39,135 nucleotides of DNA from Thermoplasmata archaeon (GTDB taxonomy: Archaea; Thermoplasmatota; Thermoplasmata; Halarchaeoplasmatales; Halarchaeoplasmataceae): contig PWKY01000072.1 in the NCBI GenBank assembly GCA_003560595.1, positions 1 through 39,135 of the forward strand, written 5' to 3'. The position numbers were made by a program, and so were the translations under genes. Positions within the stretch are counted from its first letter, which is position 1. Each line of letters opens with the position of its first letter. The notes beneath the pieces are model-generated. The model searched no databases and was not told the DNA's origin. It saw only the letters and a list, made by a program, of their open reading frames with translations. Shown here piece by piece: positions 3,383 to 31,062 of the stretch.

Positions 3383-4864
3383 CTAGGATACATCATCTTT
3401 TAGTAAATCAAAGCATTTTTGATATAACTCCTGTTCTTCTATCTCATCAAATATATCTAAAGCCTCTTCCAAATACGTCTCATAAGAAGATCCTCCATCT
3501 TTCATCATGTCTGAACCGTATTCTAGAAGATAGATACCTAGATACTTTTTTATTTCTTTTTCTTTCACGGATTTAGACTCGAGCTTAGGTAATTCTAAAG
3601 CAGATCGATAATAGCTGATTTTTTCATTTTCATCTTCTTCGAGTTCAGCAGCTTTGACGTAATTATCAAATGCTTTATCATATAACTTCGCTTTCTCGTA
3701 ATACCTTGCTAATTTATCTCGATATAGATGAAGAGAATCTGAGTATAGCTTTTCAATAGTTTCAGCAGCTCTCCTATTAAGTAACCTTTTCTTCCCTTTA
3801 AATAAAGATTCATAAAGGATATCTCTTACAGGGAGATTCTTAAAACAGTAACCTTCTTCTTCATCCATCTCCTCTAAAATACCGTGTTCTAACGCTGTAT
3901 CAAGGTAGTCAAGTATTTCCATTTCATCCATACCTGCAAAATTCGATAGTAATTCATAATTAAATTTATATCCTAGTATACTCGCAGATTGTAGTAGATT
4001 TCTAGTTTTTTTATCCAGCTTAACTATCTTCCTTTCTATAACGTATTTCACCGTAGAAGGCCATTCAAAGGAATCATCCATAGGTGGATAAATACTTTCT
4101 TCAGGTATTATCAGCCCTTTACCCAACATAGATTTTACCGTTTCTACTATAAACAATGGATTTCCTTGGGTTTTGGAATGGATCATTTTGCAAAAATTAT
4201 CCGACGGCTCTACGTCTAATAATTCTTCTATGATCTTTTTTGTTTTATTTAAATCAAATGGTTTGAGTTCGATATGTTTACATAGATTTCTTTGTTTTAG
4301 ATGATGAATAGTTTCATCCAACACGATATATCCCATGGATTCCCCAGGCCTATATGTACCCAATAGTAAAATGGGATGGTTCGGTACGTGTTCCGATATA
4401 TATCTAAAGGCCAATAATGTGGCTTTATCCCCCCAATGTAATTCCTCAATAATTATAATAAGGGGACATCCATCTGCCATCTTCGCTATATTATCGAAAG
4501 ATTCTTTCAATGTATTTGGTTTTTCAACATCGAAAATAGAGATGCTATCTGTATTTTCTTGCCCAGAGAAAATGGATATACCTAAAGGCAGAGATGATAC
4601 GGATGTATCCGGCGTATTTAAAACTTCAAAAGCTTCATTGAAGGGATGATATGAAAGAGCATCTCTTGAGATGCATGAGCCCTGAAAACACTTAAAATCG
4701 TTTTCTTTTGCCTTATCTAAAAGCCATTCAACAAGTTCTGTTTTTCCGATACCCGCTTCCCCGGAAATAACCACGGTTTTACCTTTACCTTTCTTAACCT
4801 CCTCCAGAACCATGTTAAGGGTTTTGCATTCCCTATCCCTGTCGATAAAAATCAAATCACTCAT
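3383..4864 (-). CDS. AAA/STAND-like ATPase with C-terminal helical (TPR-like) region
   Basis: Walker A GEAGIGKT, Walker B LIIIIEELHWGD, C-terminal helical repeats; 8-nt overlap with upstream PAS gene. Confidence 0.82.
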   Translation of the reverse strand: MSDLIFIDRDRECKTLNMVLEEVKKGKGKTVVISGEAGIGKTELVEWLLDKAKENDFKCFQGSCISRDALSYHPFNEAFEVLNTPDTSVSSLPLGISIFSGQENTDSISIFDVEKPNTLKESFDNIAKMADGCPLIIIIEELHWGDKATLLAFRYISEHVPNHPILLLGTYRPGESMGYIVLDETIHHLKQRNLCKHIELKPFDLNKTKKIIEELLDVEPSDNFCKMIHSKTQGNPLFIVETVKSMLGKGLIIPEESIYPPMDDSFEWPSTVKYVIERKIVKLDKKTRNLLQSASILGYKFNYELLSNFAGMDEMEILDYLDTALEHGILEEMDEEEGYCFKNLPVRDILYESLFKGKKRLLNRRAAETIEKLYSDSLHLYRDKLARYYEKAKLYDKAFDNYVKAAELEEDENEKISYYRSALELPKLESKSVKEKEIKKYLGIYLLEYGSDMMKDGGSSYETYLEEALDIFDEIEEQELYQKCFDLLKDDVS

Positions 4865-20085: not shown

Positions 20086-23000
20086 ATGTTAGATAAGAAA
20101 AAAAGAAAGATTTTTAGTGCTGCTATAGCACTACTACTGCTGCTTTCGGTTTTTTCAGCACTATCTTCCAGCTTGGTTGCCCAAGTAGAGGATGAAGCTG
20201 TGATCGCCGGAGGTGATGCAGAAGAGAACCATGACATCAGTGAGTTGACCAACAGACTGAAAGAATACATCCAAGAGAACTACCCTGTTGATAGACCAGA
20301 TGTTCTAGACCCCGAGTTGACAAAACTACTGAGTGGGGCTAGCTTCTCCGGTGAAGGTTTAACGTCCAATAACGAGCTGTTAACGGATCCTCACACCATA
20401 GATCAACACAACGTTCAGGCCGTACATGATATGGGTATAACCGGTGAAAACGTAATAGTATCTTTGATGGACACTGGATTCGATATGGCACACCCCGATC
20501 TGATAGGCACCCACGCGGTATTTGAGTACGATGATACCGTTATGGAACCAGAGATGGAGATGTATCATGGATATCCGATAGCTTTCGACCCAGTCTCTAT
20601 GGCCGATTTTGTCTTTGACGGTGAGATCAGTCAGGATTACACCACCTGGTGGGGAACTACCGACAACAGTTGGTACGTGAACACCAGTTACGAGACCACA
20701 GCATACGAAGAGGACGGAATCATATGGGCTAATTATACTGAAAAACCAGAAGGCTTACACGTCTATGAGATGCCAGAAGGAGTAGAAGCCGGAGATCTTG
20801 TAAGATTCGGCCTTCACCCTGATGAGAAGCTTCATGCTGGTTGGGGAGAAAGACCCGCAGTCTTATTAACACAGGACGAAGACGGACAATGGGCTAATGT
20901 GTATGCAGACTTGTGGATGGATAGAAGTTTTGCCGAAGAAAAGCGGGCTTATATCGACGGAGACGTTCCGGATTCAGAAGTACTTACTAGAGATCTGAAC
21001 GGTGACGGGATCGCTGATATATCTGGAGGTATGGTTTACTTTGTCGCTAGAGAGTATGAAGGATCACCGATGCCTATACCTTACACCCAGCACTTTAGAG
21101 AGACGATGAATACCATTATCAATCTCTTTCTGGGATATCCGCCCGGAACTATTGAAGCGCTATTTGATGATGATGCGTGGGAAGTATTTATCGGTCCGGA
21201 TTTCTACGATACTCCTGAACCGGGTGATATGATAGCTCTCATGGGAGATTTCAACTCTTTTGGAGCCTATGGCGCACACGGTACATGGACGGCTTCTGCA
21301 GTGGCAGGCCAGGCAGTCACCGGTGTTCCCGATGAAGACATGTTGACTGGTGAACCGAGTCCTTTCCCACCAACACCAGAGGGTGGTGACGGATTAACAA
21401 GAGGTTTGGCACCTAATGCAAAGATAGTGCCCATGGGTAGATTCTTTGATGGGATGCCAGAAGACAATCCTTTAGGTATGTTCCCGACTACATATTCTTC
21501 GATATTCTTTACCGCCGAAGGATATACAGGTGATGTAACGATAACCTCGGATTCTGCAGACATCGCATCTAGCAGTTTCGGTAGAACTATAGACGAAAAC
21601 CACGGTGGTTTCAATTTCTATGAGAGATTATTCGATTATGTAGGGACACAACACACCCAGAATACCTTGTTCATAAATTCTCAAGGTAACGAAGGTAGTG
21701 GTTTCGGTACTGTAAGTGCCCCCTCGGGTGCACAGGGAGTACTTTCTGTCGGTGCCACCGGTAATCAGCTATACCGAGTAGATGGATGGAACATGTATGA
21801 TGGTGGTCCAAATCCATGGTATGGTGAAGTCACGGGTATGACCAGTACAGGCCCACACGCCAAGGGTTCACACGGTCCGGATATAATGACTAATGGTCAA
21901 TTTGGATATGGTGCAGACCCATTGAACCAACAGATAGCCAATATCGGAGGTTTCCAGGGTAATAACTCATGGACTCTATGGTCTGGTACGAGCTTGTCCG
22001 CGCCCAACGCAGCAGGTATCGCAGCATTAGTGTTCGAAGCATATGTAGATGCACACGGTGAAGCGCCAGATGCAGCCACCTTGAAGAACATCATAATGCA
22101 GGGTGCAAACGACATCAACAACACACCAAATCTACAGGGACCTGGAGATGCAAACGCTCTGAATTCAGTTTTGATCGCTCAAGGCGAAGGACTTTATTCC
22201 GAGGAATTCCAGTGGAGACCTGGAACGAATCCAGAGTGGGGGGCGCATGTTGAACATCACGTCAACATATTGGAACCTGGTGACAGTCATATAGACACAT
22301 TGACTTTGCACAATTGGCACGATGAAGAGATCGAATTCGAGATCAACGCTTACAGAGAAGAGCATGTGGGTTCAACACAGATAGAGCTCAACAGCGGTCC
22401 AGCTGGAAGAGTCCCATTTATAGTGATCAATGAAACCGGTGTTTACGAATTGATCTACAACGAGACCAATGAAAATTGGGACCTCGGCGAAGAACCCATA
22501 GCTGTGTTGGATGATCCAAACGCTGAATTGTTCCGGTTTGGAACACACACACCTAAATCACAACAGAATGGAGCCTACAGTTTAGCCGAATTCTATCATT
22601 GGACTGATGTAAATGACAATGGTTCATTCGACGGATTAGAGGAAAGAACCAGGATCGGATATACTTTGACTAATTTAGATGCAATCGGTTTTCCACATAC
22701 GAGCGACTACTTCACCATACACGATGCTATCGAACGATCAGAAGATGGGATAATAGTACAGATGAACAATGTCGTGGGCGGCGACTTCGATTTCACATTG
22801 AATATAGAACAGTACAACCATGTCCAGTGGAATTGGATAGAGGTAGATGGCGCATTACCTGGAACCATCGATGGTGAAGATTTCATTACATACGATATGG
22901 AAGCGGAAGTACCAAATGATGCACCCAAAGGGATATACAGTGGTAAGTTGATGATCAACGACGTCACAAACGATAGAATACATCCTGTACCGATAACCAT

Positions 23001-25785
23001 CACTGTAGGGGAGTATACTAACCTTGAAGAACCCTTCTTCTTTGGTGCTGGTGACGGAGATCCTGCTCACGACCAGGGAATATTCAGAAATGATCGATTG
23101 TACGGGAGCTGGGAAGGCGGACTCACCGGTGATTGGAGATTCTACACATTCCATCTAGAGGAAGATATACTGGATCGAGATATCACTCTAGAACTGAACT
23201 TCGATAACGAGATGAGTGATATGACCGCTTTCTTACTCGGTGGAGCAGAACACGACTTGTTGGAACTTGGAGCACCGTTCGACGTTGACCCCTTCAGCAT
23301 CATGAATGCTGGTAGGTATGGTTTGAACACCCTCGAAACTATTCATGAAACTGATATTGACCGTGGGGACTATGTAGCGTTTGTTAGAGAAGAAGGTCTC
23401 GAACAAGGAACTTATATGATAGCTCTACAGAGCCATCAGATATCCGGTTATGAACCTTCTCAGATATTCTCAGGACAATTGACTGCCAGTTACATACGGA
23501 CACCTAGAGATGAAGCAAGAGTAGTTGACAGAGGTGCTATAAACTTCCCAGGAGAATTGTTAGCCATGCCTGATGGAGCGGCCGAGGTAAATGCTTCTTT
23601 CAGATACAGACAGGTAGGAGAAGATGACTGGAATGAATCAGAAGGTCAAACTCTTACCGAAACTGGTGAATTCCATGAAACTGTAACCGGACTAGAAGAT
23701 GGTACTTATGAATGGAAACCAGTTATAGAATGGAATCCTGAGCAAACTGGTGTTATAGGTACCCCCGTTGTTTTACAGGACCTATCTGAATGGTTGATGA
23801 CCTCACCTGCAGAAGGAGAATTTGTCCGCGGTGATCCTTTAACCATACAAGCGCGGATGGTCGACTTCGAAGATGAACTAGTAGATGCTTCTATATCATT
23901 GGGTGATTGGTTCCCATATGATAATGTAGAGATCGAAAATAATCATGCCTGGTGGAACGTACCAGTCGCATTAAGTGAGGGTACACATGACTACGAATTC
24001 TACGTGGAAGATGAATACGGAAACGACCACACAGAACATGTCACATTCGAAGTACTGAACCATGAACCATACCTTGAAATAACCAGCGATTACGGTTACA
24101 TGACATACGACGATGAATTCATCATCGAAGGTCTGGTCGACGAAGATTCTTATGCATATGTCAATGGCGTTGAAGTCTATGATCCACAAGTAGAGTGGCA
24201 GGCTGTGTTCCATGACGATCTAACAGAAGGTGATCTTGGATACACAACTAGAGAAAATCCTGAAGGTGTCAACGAATGGGGCATAAGAGACCATGGATCC
24301 TATGTTGGAGACCTTTCATGGGACTTTGGAGATGGAAACTACGATGCTGATCCAACAGGTGCTCTTAGCGAATTGATATCTCCTGAGATAGACCTACACG
24401 GTTCAAGAGATGCTAGACTTACGTTCTGGCATTGGAGAGACTTCGAAGATGCGGCCGACCTTTGGGACGGCGGCAATCTAAAGATATCTACTGATGGCGG
24501 TGATTCTTGGGACCTTTTGATACCTGAAGAAGGATATGATGGAACTGTGATCGGAGGATACAACAATCCACTTGCTGGTCAACAGGCGTGGGGTCACTCA
24601 GCAGATTGGGAGATCGCAACATTTGATCTCGGTGATTACATAGATGAAACCATACATTTGAACTGGCAGGCCGGTGCTGATGATTGGGACACAGGACATC
24701 AAGGATGGCGTATAGACAACATCCTTATCGAAGGTCTTTTACCGATCGAAGAAGGCCCAACGGGCAGTTATACAATACTAGGGGATTCAACTGCTGATTT
24801 CACATATGAAACGACACTCGAAGAAGGATTAAACGTCTTCGAAATTTTAGCTGTGAACCCAGCGGGAATCACGAGTGAACAGGAGATCTATGTCACCTAT
24901 CTACCAGACTACCAAGATATCCCATTGATTTGGGAAAGCATCGATGACCTTTGGGATGCATTGGATGAGACTTTAACAGAAGCAGAGATACATGCACTGT
25001 TGGAGGACTATGTAACCCACGGCGAACTGGCGGAAATCCTTGAAGATTACTTGACAGAAGCAGAGATACATGCACTCTTGGAGGACTATGTAAATGAAAC
25101 GCATCTTGCAGAAGTACTAGAGGACTATCTTACAGAAGCCGAGATAGATGCATTGTTAGAGGACTATCTTACAGAAGCCGAGATAGATGCATTGTTAGAT
25201 GATTATCTGACAGAAGAGGAAATAGACACACTGTTGGAAGCCTACCTAACAGAAGCCGAGGTACACACGCTGTTAGAGGACTATCTGACAGAAGCAGAGA
25301 TACGTGCGCTTTTAGACGACCTTCTATCAGATTATCTAAAGGAAGCCGAGATAGATGCGCTATTAGAAGACTATGTAACTGAAGGTGATTTATCCACAAC
25401 TTTGGAAAGCTATCTAACCGAAGAACAGATAGACTCTTTGATCAGTAACATGCTAGATGACTACGTAACAGACACAAGCTTGGCTACGATTCTAGAAGAT
25501 TACCTAGAAGAAGATGAGATCAACGAAGTGATGGGCCAACTAGAAAGTGATATGATGGCTGAAATCGAAACAATGTTACAGAACTACGCGGTACAAGAAG
25601 AAGTGGACGAAGACATAGAAAGTGCATCGAACATGGCTTTGGTAGGGATAATCCTGGGTATCTTAGCCCTGATAATCGCCATCTTTGCGGTGGCTAAAAA
25701 GGCTAAAGGCTCAGAAACAGAGTCTTTTGAAGAGGAATCTTTCGAAGAGGAAGATGATCTCTACGAAGACGATGATATCTTCTAA
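20086..25785 (+). CDS. Very large S8 (subtilisin-like) surface protease with repeat stalk and C-terminal membrane anchor
   Basis: N-terminal signal-like hydrophobic segment; catalytic Asp in VSLMDTG (codon 20470), His in GAHGTW (codon 21277), oxyanion-region INSQGNEG, Ser in SGTSLSAP (codon 21991); C-terminal TM NMALVGIILGILALIIAIFAVAKK then acidic tail. Confidence 0.95.
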   Translation: MLDKKKRKIFSAAIALLLLLSVFSALSSSLVAQVEDEAVIAGGDAEENHDISELTNRLKEYIQENYPVDRPDVLDPELTKLLSGASFSGEGLTSNNELLTDPHTIDQHNVQAVHDMGITGENVIVSLMDTGFDMAHPDLIGTHAVFEYDDTVMEPEMEMYHGYPIAFDPVSMADFVFDGEISQDYTTWWGTTDNSWYVNTSYETTAYEEDGIIWANYTEKPEGLHVYEMPEGVEAGDLVRFGLHPDEKLHAGWGERPAVLLTQDEDGQWANVYADLWMDRSFAEEKRAYIDGDVPDSEVLTRDLNGDGIADISGGMVYFVAREYEGSPMPIPYTQHFRETMNTIINLFLGYPPGTIEALFDDDAWEVFIGPDFYDTPEPGDMIALMGDFNSFGAYGAHGTWTASAVAGQAVTGVPDEDMLTGEPSPFPPTPEGGDGLTRGLAPNAKIVPMGRFFDGMPEDNPLGMFPTTYSSIFFTAEGYTGDVTITSDSADIASSSFGRTIDENHGGFNFYERLFDYVGTQHTQNTLFINSQGNEGSGFGTVSAPSGAQGVLSVGATGNQLYRVDGWNMYDGGPNPWYGEVTGMTSTGPHAKGSHGPDIMTNGQFGYGADPLNQQIANIGGFQGNNSWTLWSGTSLSAPNAAGIAALVFEAYVDAHGEAPDAATLKNIIMQGANDINNTPNLQGPGDANALNSVLIAQGEGLYSEEFQWRPGTNPEWGAHVEHHVNILEPGDSHIDTLTLHNWHDEEIEFEINAYREEHVGSTQIELNSGPAGRVPFIVINETGVYELIYNETNENWDLGEEPIAVLDDPNAELFRFGTHTPKSQQNGAYSLAEFYHWTDVNDNGSFDGLEERTRIGYTLTNLDAIGFPHTSDYFTIHDAIERSEDGIIVQMNNVVGGDFDFTLNIEQYNHVQWNWIEVDGALPGTIDGEDFITYDMEAEVPNDAPKGIYSGKLMINDVTNDRIHPVPITITVGEYTNLEEPFFFGAGDGDPAHDQGIFRNDRLYGSWEGGLTGDWRFYTFHLEEDILDRDITLELNFDNEMSDMTAFLLGGAEHDLLELGAPFDVDPFSIMNAGRYGLNTLETIHETDIDRGDYVAFVREEGLEQGTYMIALQSHQISGYEPSQIFSGQLTASYIRTPRDEARVVDRGAINFPGELLAMPDGAAEVNASFRYRQVGEDDWNESEGQTLTETGEFHETVTGLEDGTYEWKPVIEWNPEQTGVIGTPVVLQDLSEWLMTSPAEGEFVRGDPLTIQARMVDFEDELVDASISLGDWFPYDNVEIENNHAWWNVPVALSEGTHDYEFYVEDEYGNDHTEHVTFEVLNHEPYLEITSDYGYMTYDDEFIIEGLVDEDSYAYVNGVEVYDPQVEWQAVFHDDLTEGDLGYTTRENPEGVNEWGIRDHGSYVGDLSWDFGDGNYDADPTGALSELISPEIDLHGSRDARLTFWHWRDFEDAADLWDGGNLKISTDGGDSWDLLIPEEGYDGTVIGGYNNPLAGQQAWGHSADWEIATFDLGDYIDETIHLNWQAGADDWDTGHQGWRIDNILIEGLLPIEEGPTGSYTILGDSTADFTYETTLEEGLNVFEILAVNPAGITSEQEIYVTYLPDYQDIPLIWESIDDLWDALDETLTEAEIHALLEDYVTHGELAEILEDYLTEAEIHALLEDYVNETHLAEVLEDYLTEAEIDALLEDYLTEAEIDALLDDYLTEEEIDTLLEAYLTEAEVHTLLEDYLTEAEIRALLDDLLSDYLKEAEIDALLEDYVTEGDLSTTLESYLTEEQIDSLISNMLDDYVTDTSLATILEDYLEEDEINEVMGQLESDMMAEIETMLQNYAVQEEVDEDIESASNMALVGIILGILALIIAIFAVAKKAKGSETESFEEESFEEEDDLYEDDDIF
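24970..25545 (+). repeat. Degenerate 39-bp (13-aa) tandem repeats within the protease gene
   Basis: Unit YLTEAEIDALLED repeated; two identical adjacent 39-bp copies at 25120-25158 and 25159-25197; near-identical segments 78 bp apart at ~24973 and ~25051. Confidence 0.93.
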
Positions 25786-30231: not shown

Positions 30232-31062
30232 TTGACGATATACACGGATGTATTTCTCTGGACCGGTATCGCCTTGCTTTTGTTCGGATATATCGGAAAG
30301 TATCGCAAGCATGAAACGAGGATGGTCGGTTATGTGATACTTGGATTATTCTGGGTAGCTGAGGCGCCATATTTTTTCGACATCGGTGATATCGTGAACG
30401 CGACTCTGTGTTTAGCCGCTCTTCCTCTTTTCTCCTACTTCGCATACCACGAGTTCCTTTCTAGAAAGTGGGATGAGGATCCGGAGTTGATGAAGTTCAT
30501 AGCCGGAAGTATCTCTATATCCATGTTGATCTACTACAGCGTACAGAGGATACCATTGGCTGCAGGTTTTTTGACCCAGATCGTAGCACAGCATACCAAC
30601 TGGATCTTATCGGGCATGGGCTACGATTTTACACTGGGTGCCATCGAGTACGGAGGCAACCCCTTGTTTTATAGAGTGAATCAAGAACCTATAGGCATAC
30701 CGATAATCGGCTCGGGGATACGGATAATCTTCGCATGTACGGCTCTTCAAACCTTGGCCCCTGCAGGTACCTTGTTGGCACTCACAGCAGCGGAATGGCA
30801 GCGGAAAATTAAGAGTTTGATCATAGTTTTGGTCACAGTGTATATAGCCAATCTATTGAGGAACGTGATGATCGTTTATCTAACATATGAAGACATCACT
30901 TCTTTCGAAGTGGCCCATCATCAGATCGCCAAGGTCGGTTCCGTGATAGTACTCGTGATACTGATGTTGATCGTGTTCGAGATCATGCCCGAGTTCTACG
31001 ATAATATCATAGGTATAGTTTCATTACCCAAAAGAGAAAAGTTATCCGCCGGAGACGACTGA
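30232..31062 (+). CDS. artA: Archaeosortase A family protein (TTG start)
   Basis: Multi-TM; IIFACTALQ (catalytic Cys), NLLRNVMIVYLTY (Arg), FEVAHHQIAKVGSVIVLVILMLIVFEIMPEFYD. Confidence 0.88.
   Translation: MTIYTDVFLWTGIALLLFGYIGKYRKHETRMVGYVILGLFWVAEAPYFFDIGDIVNATLCLAALPLFSYFAYHEFLSRKWDEDPELMKFIAGSISISMLIYYSVQRIPLAAGFLTQIVAQHTNWILSGMGYDFTLGAIEYGGNPLFYRVNQEPIGIPIIGSGIRIIFACTALQTLAPAGTLLALTAAEWQRKIKSLIIVLVTVYIANLLRNVMIVYLTYEDITSFEVAHHQIAKVGSVIVLVILMLIVFEIMPEFYDNIIGIVSLPKREKLSAGDD

Follow-up and report, generated by a model that had tools for sequence, protein, structure and literature searches.

It is probable that one giant gene of a salt-loving archaeon encodes an S8 (subtilase) protease that stands on a long oligomeric stalk, is held by a transmembrane (TM) helix and degrades protein in the surrounding brine for peptide uptake, the stalk being a trimeric α/β coiled coil made of 13-residue units. 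The gene lies at positions 20086-25785 (+) of the stretch of DNA that was analysed (39,135 nucleotides, referred to below as the window). According to this model, the secreted protease would be displayed at the tip of a long fibrous stalk, and one C-terminal TM helix would hold the protein in the membrane. The stalk would be an oligomeric rod: most relatives would form it from heptads as a coiled coil, and the window protein from 13-residue units as an α/β coiled coil, where a parallel and homotrimeric arrangement of the chains would bring three protease heads onto one pillar with a length of, by our estimate, roughly 35-40 nm. Tethered in this way, the protease would degrade proteins in the brine near the cell, and the peptides would then be taken up. 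The sequences themselves establish the reading frame, its catalytic residues, the sharing of the C-terminal module, the exchange of stalks at one locus and the 13-residue period, while the oligomeric state, the β-layers, the rod shape, the proteolytic activity and the nutritional role are inferred from them.

The window is one of the 100 contigs of a 1.89 Mb draft genome. Scanning of contigs with the single protein gave no relatives, an alignment-based scan succeeded, and the relatives were studied as stretches around the relevant matches. The nearest named relatives in the alignment scan were Thermoplasmata MAGs of the B1Sed10 and T1Sed10 samples, together with one Great Salt Lake MAG, B1Sed10 and T1Sed10 being sample names for high-salinity sediments of the soda lakes of the Kulunda Steppe (PMC6146748). 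The source organism is a salt-loving archaeon of an uncultured Thermoplasmata family.

The giant open reading frame (ORF), which starts with ATG and encodes 1,899 amino acids, is genuine. A sequence-only reading of this DNA had divided the protein into a subtilase with an intact S8 triad, a beta-rich ectodomain of about 900 residues, a region of helical repeats, a single TM helix and a short, very acidic tail; each of these parts was found in its place, with a signal peptide in front of them:

20086..20184 (+): signal peptide, residues 1 to about 33; a hydrophobic segment after KKKRK, with an approximate cleavage site
20185..20400 (+): short region N-terminal to the catalytic domain, residues about 34-105; putative propeptide
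20401..22155 (+): S8 subtilase catalytic domain, residues about 106-690; PF00082, E=1e-28
20470-20472, 21277-21279, 21688-21690 and 21991-21993 (+): catalytic residues Asp129, His398, Asn535 and Ser636, respectively, from the alignment of relatives
20518..21240 (+): long insertion that separates Asp from His, residues about 145-385; kept in all orthologs and remote relatives, pLDDT mixed
22156..23499 (+): β-sandwich ectodomains, residues about 691-1138; strand-rich model of moderate confidence, matching tandem Ig/Fn3 proteins only
23500..24075 (+): Fn3/Ig-like domains, residues about 1139-1330; pLDDT mostly 80-91, weak Big_13 match
24076..24177 (+): first half of an Ig-like domain of the Glucodextranase-B type, residues about 1331-1364; aligned to uninterrupted orthologs, PF09136 in module-sharing proteins
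24178..24765 (+): MAM-like (InhA-type) domain, residues about 1365-1560; inserted within the Ig-like domain, from the alignment to orthologs
24766..24897 (+): second half of the Ig-like domain, residues about 1561-1604; motif of the Y-x-x-Y-L-P type at its end
24898..25623 (+): stalk, residues 1605-1846; 13-residue repeats
25633..25695 (+): TM helix, residues about 1850-1870; KKAK flank on the inner side
25705..25782 (+): acidic tail, residues 1874-1899; motif of the SFEEESFEEE type, seen again in paralogs

In a Pfam scan of the protein, the S8 match lay above its cut-off (100.9 bits against 21.8) and all other matches were sub-threshold. Asp129, His398 and Ser636, which stand within DTG, HGT and GTS motifs, and the oxyanion residue Asn535 are invariant in an alignment of seven sequences of relatives; the triad was thus intact, as had been claimed, and the "about 270 residues" given for the distance from Asp to His measured 269. 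The region of residues 34-105 contains no recognisable I9 propeptide, and three remote relatives (L020, L067 and L071) have a longer region N-terminal to the catalytic domain than the window protein. AlphaFold2 was run twice on monomers with 9-10 sequences, giving a mean pLDDT of 56 for residues 700-1899 and of 49 for residues 27-1139, so the model of the catalytic domain is poor (mean 49 with 10 sequences). Residues 691-1604 are nevertheless strand-rich in these models, in keeping with the beta-rich ectodomain proposed earlier, and the Fn3/Ig part at about 1139-1370 is confident, with pLDDT mostly 80-91. Foldseek on the low-confidence models returned no more than generic matches to Ig/Fn3 proteins and weak ones of the subtilase type, which were used no further than for the term "β-sandwich", and a search of the PDB by sequence with the ectodomain gave nothing useful.

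The C-terminus was also as described: besides the signal peptide there is a single hydrophobic segment (in Kyte-Doolittle windows of 19 residues that start at 1844-1857), and D/E make up 54% of the final 26 residues (1874-1899). By the positive-inside rule, the acidic tail would lie on the cytoplasmic side. The acidic tails of the window protein and of the paralogs L037, L041, L052, L058 and L059 contain [DE]-x-F-E-E-E or D-L-F-E-E in more than one genus, and this recurring motif is a candidate for cytoplasmic docking.

The MAM-like domain splits the last Ig-like domain of the window protein. It is missing in all five orthologs, where the alignment shows the Ig-like domain intact, and about 60 other copies occur in the family on giant surface proteins, the better matches being 45-57% identical. 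The window's own copy falls below the PF20773 cut-off, and a homologous copy in the paralog L052 passes it (27.9 bits against 26.9). The MAM-like domain is a spreading accessory domain. An assembly chimera is an unlikely source of the insertion, which is in frame, about 45-57% identical to the best-matching family copies and not a recent duplicate.

The five orthologs (G005, G009, G010, G011 and G013) are 47-75% identical to the window protein. In the window, in G005 (same genus) and in G013 (another genus) the genes for GTP cyclohydrolase, PCNA, DegT, the large subunit of primase and exonuclease VII run colinearly up to the protease, and because these are housekeeping genes in the same order, the three proteins are positional orthologs at one locus. 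G010 and G011 have a common gene context that differs from that of the window. The 13-residue units make up the stalks of the window protein and of G005, whose contig ends within the stalk; at the same place G009, G010, G011 and G013 carry a coiled coil of the heptad type, followed by the TM helix and acidic tail. The stalk is thus exchangeable at one syntenic locus, with heptads in G013 and 13-mers in the window and G005. Four further proteins (L042, L050, L054 and L056) are hybrids, in which a stretch of heptads passes without a break into 13-mers, as would suit one continuous rod. Since the two stalk types share a position and join in one chain, the best explanation is that both have the same mechanical role, that of a rod.

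These comparisons support the idea of an extracellular protease that stands on a stalk and is anchored in the membrane: wherever the C-terminus of an ortholog is complete (four cases, G009, G010, G011 and G013), a stalk, a TM helix and an acidic tail are all retained, while the sequence of the stalk varies. Homologues lacking the TM anchor, which were to speak against it, amounted to one remote case, a 1325-aa L071 paralog that ends without a TM helix; the orthologs keep theirs, and L071 (RBG_13_57_23), a remote relative, combines a subtilase, Ig repeats, a coiled coil, a TM helix and a charged tail. On the whole, the stalked and anchored protease of the sequence-only reading stands, its comparison with tetrabrachion fails in detail (see below), and two features had gone unseen, the shared anchor module and the fold pattern of the 13-mers.

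The periodicity of the stalk is well beyond chance. Its self-identity at lag 13 is 0.37, a value reached at any lag by none of 10,000 shuffles, and the unit, strictly 13 residues long, follows the consensus Y-[LVI]-T-E-x-[ED]-[IL]-x-x-[LIA]-L-E-D, with positions 6 and 10 (counting Y as 0) hydrophobic in 100% and 95% of units. The stalk is 33% D/E and 0.8% K/R, and one interval in it, between the motifs at 1733 and 1750, is of 17 residues. Among 61 intervals between motifs in eight proteins, 47 measured 13 residues, five 26 (read as one unrecognised motif), four 19 (13+6) and one 17 (13+4), i.e., 57 of the 61, the other four (15, 21, 24 and 32) not being simple; shuffled sequences gave zero 13-residue intervals in 500 trials.

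Such spacings have a structural precedent. Hartmann et al. (2016) described how insertions of two or six residues into the heptads of a trimeric coiled coil lead to short β-strands, the "β-layers", after which the downstream register begins at e following the preceding c or g (PMC4786415). Thirteen residues equal a heptad plus a hexad (7+6) or a nonad plus a stutter (9+4), 17 and 19 are the next expected steps, and the Y-L-T of the consensus resembles the β-layer motif of that survey. With heptads, insertions and a β-layer motif, the 13-residue repeats match the α/β coiled-coil pattern. The homotrimer MPN010 (PDB 2BA2) has two β-layers 13 residues apart in YVTHKQLDEKLKNFVTKTEF (Table 2 of PMC4786415), which is close to the window-type repeat YVTHGELAEILEDYLTEAEI, a likeness of motif and spacing; the score of the MPN010 segment under the repeat profile was reached by 9 of 20,000 shuffles, which is supportive, not proof. 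Because searches of the PDB with the stalk and its repeats, by profile and by sequence, convincingly returned neither 2BA2 nor any other coiled coil, it is the motif and its spacing that carry the structural match. All β-layers of the survey were found in homotrimers (PMC4786415), and the trimeric surface stalk of Deinococcus SlpA has two (PMC9388160). Since the α/β fold has so far been seen in homotrimers, the stalk probably trimerises, with three protease heads predicted per pillar. A β-layer run of the length found in the window would be an extrapolation, as the published maximum is four per coiled coil (PMC4786415).

In the AlphaFold monomer the stalk is a series of short helices with a break at intervals of about 13 residues, several of them starting exactly 13 apart, at a pLDDT of about 45-50. 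Folding of a monomer cannot form β-layers, and for this reason the model neither confirms nor refutes the pillar. A disordered or globular prediction, which was to count against the pillar, did not clearly emerge, the model being neither globular nor plainly disordered at the same low values. The repeat profile was found in 7 of the 16 family genomes, and across 390 sampled genomes of the phylum (few of the family being in the draw) it recovered only the window's own repeats at E<=0.001. A tblastn search of phages with the stalk gave no match, and hence there is no sign of a borrowed tail fibre.

Other structures for the repeats have to be considered. The 13-mers might build a monomeric α-solenoid or helical-hairpin domain, two of them to each 26-residue hairpin, so that a monomeric protease would sit on a compact spacer. 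This is improbable, even though the repeats of L053 alternate with a 26-residue pattern, the repeat region has a sub-threshold Pfam match to DUF445 (23.4 bits against 33.8) and the AlphaFold helices break about every 13 residues; helices of about 10 residues are short for a solenoid, the monomer model lacks confident packing, an ordinary coiled coil of heptads occupies this position in orthologs, hybrids join both types directly, and motifs spaced by an extra 4 or 6 residues are typical of β-layer coiled coils. That the rod is a coiled coil of two or four chains, with the 13-residue pattern accommodated otherwise, is quite improbable. The tetrabrachion stalk is a tetramer (PMC5744192) and the heptad stalks give no secure reading of the oligomeric state, but a continuous helix with a 13-residue period would need 3.25 residues per turn instead of the unperturbed 3.63 (PMC4786415), and the known β-layers, including those of SlpA, belong to trimers. 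The composition of the stalk, with its abundant D/E, and its low pLDDT would also suit a disordered, salt-adapted acidic linker; this is very improbable given that position-specific hydrophobics occur in 95-100% of units and that the N-cap Thr and the strict spacing are conserved across genera.

Cell-envelope proteinases of the PrtP type are anchored in lactic acid bacteria by covalent linkage to peptidoglycan, whereas the window protein is anchored by a TM helix with an acidic tail. Otherwise the two are alike in their order of S8 protease, β-sandwich domains, spacer and surface anchor, and the PrtP-type enzymes feed on extracellular protein, a likeness drawn from general background (see also PMC7783315). 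The sequence-only reading had pointed instead to the tetrabrachion/STABLE complex of Staphylothermus marinus, which likewise exposes a protease of the subtilisin family at the surface of an archaeon, on a long stalk that is rooted in the membrane and has beta-rich parts. Tetrabrachion is, however, a four-chain right-handed coiled coil of 11-residue repeats, to which the separate protease STABLE is bound non-covalently (PMC5744192), while window-type stalks have repeats of 13 or 7 residues and the protease is fused into the same ORF. No sequence link between them was found, and membership in this system was rejected, as was that in the trimeric autotransporter adhesins, the C-terminus being one TM helix and an acidic tail and not a β-barrel translocator. 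With the α/β coiled coils Tcar0761, OMP100 and MPN010/2BA2 the stalk shares the [aliphatic/aromatic]-[small hydrophobic]-T motif and the heptad/stutter spacing, a spacing of 13 occurring once in MPN010. These known examples are short, with up to four β-layers, and mostly bacterial or viral, in contrast to 13-mers running through about 240 residues of an archaeal surface protein. The window protein is placed with known kinds, the S8 proteases and the α/β coiled coils.

The end of the protein is shared more widely than its head. The anchor consists of an Ig-like domain of the Glucodextranase-B type, the stalk, the TM helix and the acidic tail, and a profile of the TM region found about 28 strong copies in 11 of the 16 family genomes, as well as clear copies in a second family of the class (f13), the copies terminating ORFs whose length reaches about 3,600 aa. 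In nearly all anchor proteins the Glucodextran_B-type domain stands directly before the stalk and ends in Y-x-L-Y-L-P or similar. The heads include S8 proteases (L050, L052, L057, L058 and L060), GLUG repeats (L042 and L056) and a PQQ propeller (L053). In f13 (L092-L094, from G027, G068 and G230) the head is a C25 gingipain-type protease with a C25 propeptide; these proteins share the C-terminal module, with its Glucodextran_B domain, a stalk of the heptad type and the homologous TM helix and acidic tail, and differ from the window protein in the protease head, 13-residue repeats not being detected in them. Also in f13, G205 encodes a fragment of 1014 aa that bears the anchor and corresponds to the C-terminal half of the subtilase; the catalytic half lies on a different contig, and the two would form one protein. 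Stalk and anchor together are a shared, exchangeable module under several heads. No NCBIfam model covered the anchor module in a scan of the window protein, and a literature search on stalked Thermoplasmata proteases gave no match. The chances are about even that a previously undescribed Thermoplasmata display anchor raises proteases and other heads, and that some stalks of the family are very long 13-mer α/β coiled coils with three heads per pillar. If the model is true, stalked surface proteases would be common in Thermoplasmata, which would use a single anchor again and again beneath different enzymes; and fibres so far known as short segments would have a long counterpart in nature, with rods of heptads and of 13-mers interchanging at one locus, providing a natural experiment on stalk evolution and a testable fibre for design.

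As to function, the predicted protease would most simply feed peptide uptake in a fermentative archaeon. It might instead be mainly a structural component of the S-layer, or a protease of envelope maturation that cuts neighbouring surface proteins. Many giant surface proteins do have the anchor in common, and STABLE has been proposed to process tetrabrachion (PMC5744192). Such a non-nutritional role is nonetheless unlikely. The related KTK 4A Thermoplasmata of soda lakes, a comparison that does not imply membership of the window's lineage in that group, are heterotrophic fermenters and possible primary degraders (PMC6146748), and other Thermoplasmata (MBG-D) express extracellular peptidases of the C25 and collagenase types (PMC6461988). 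Comparison of the loci, which had been suggested as a check for fixed neighbours, gave no fixed neighbourhood of envelope genes, and the adjoining genes offer no functional hint. The nutritional role of a tethered protease is therefore preferred.

Some further observations concern the cell and its surface. K/R content is 3-4% in the ectodomain and 0.8% in the stalk, against 9-15% in cytosolic proteins (six window proteins); the scarcity of basic residues in the ectodomain and stalk is as expected for parts exposed to brine. The exterior is thus far more salt-adapted than the interior, a contrast that speaks against a cytosol of the strict salt-in type. An archaeosortase A is encoded 4.4 kb downstream (30232-31062, +; TIGR04125, 124 bits against 75) and is present in 10 of the 16 family genomes. 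A PGF-CTERM signal was found neither in the protein (NCBIfam scan) nor genome-wide (TIGR04126), so the protein was rejected as a PGF-CTERM archaeosortase substrate, and the enzyme would have either other substrates or a divergent signal. Three giant proteins of the same genome (L044, L045 and L047) share another C-terminal domain (W-N-M-V/I-G ... P-G-x-G-Y-W), without a TM helix. Finally, an AAA ATPase protein of the window (3383-4864, -) is about 27-32% identical to large TPR-like proteins that adjoin giant surface genes in relatives (L063, 17159-20377, and L065, 14955-18050, both on the - strand).
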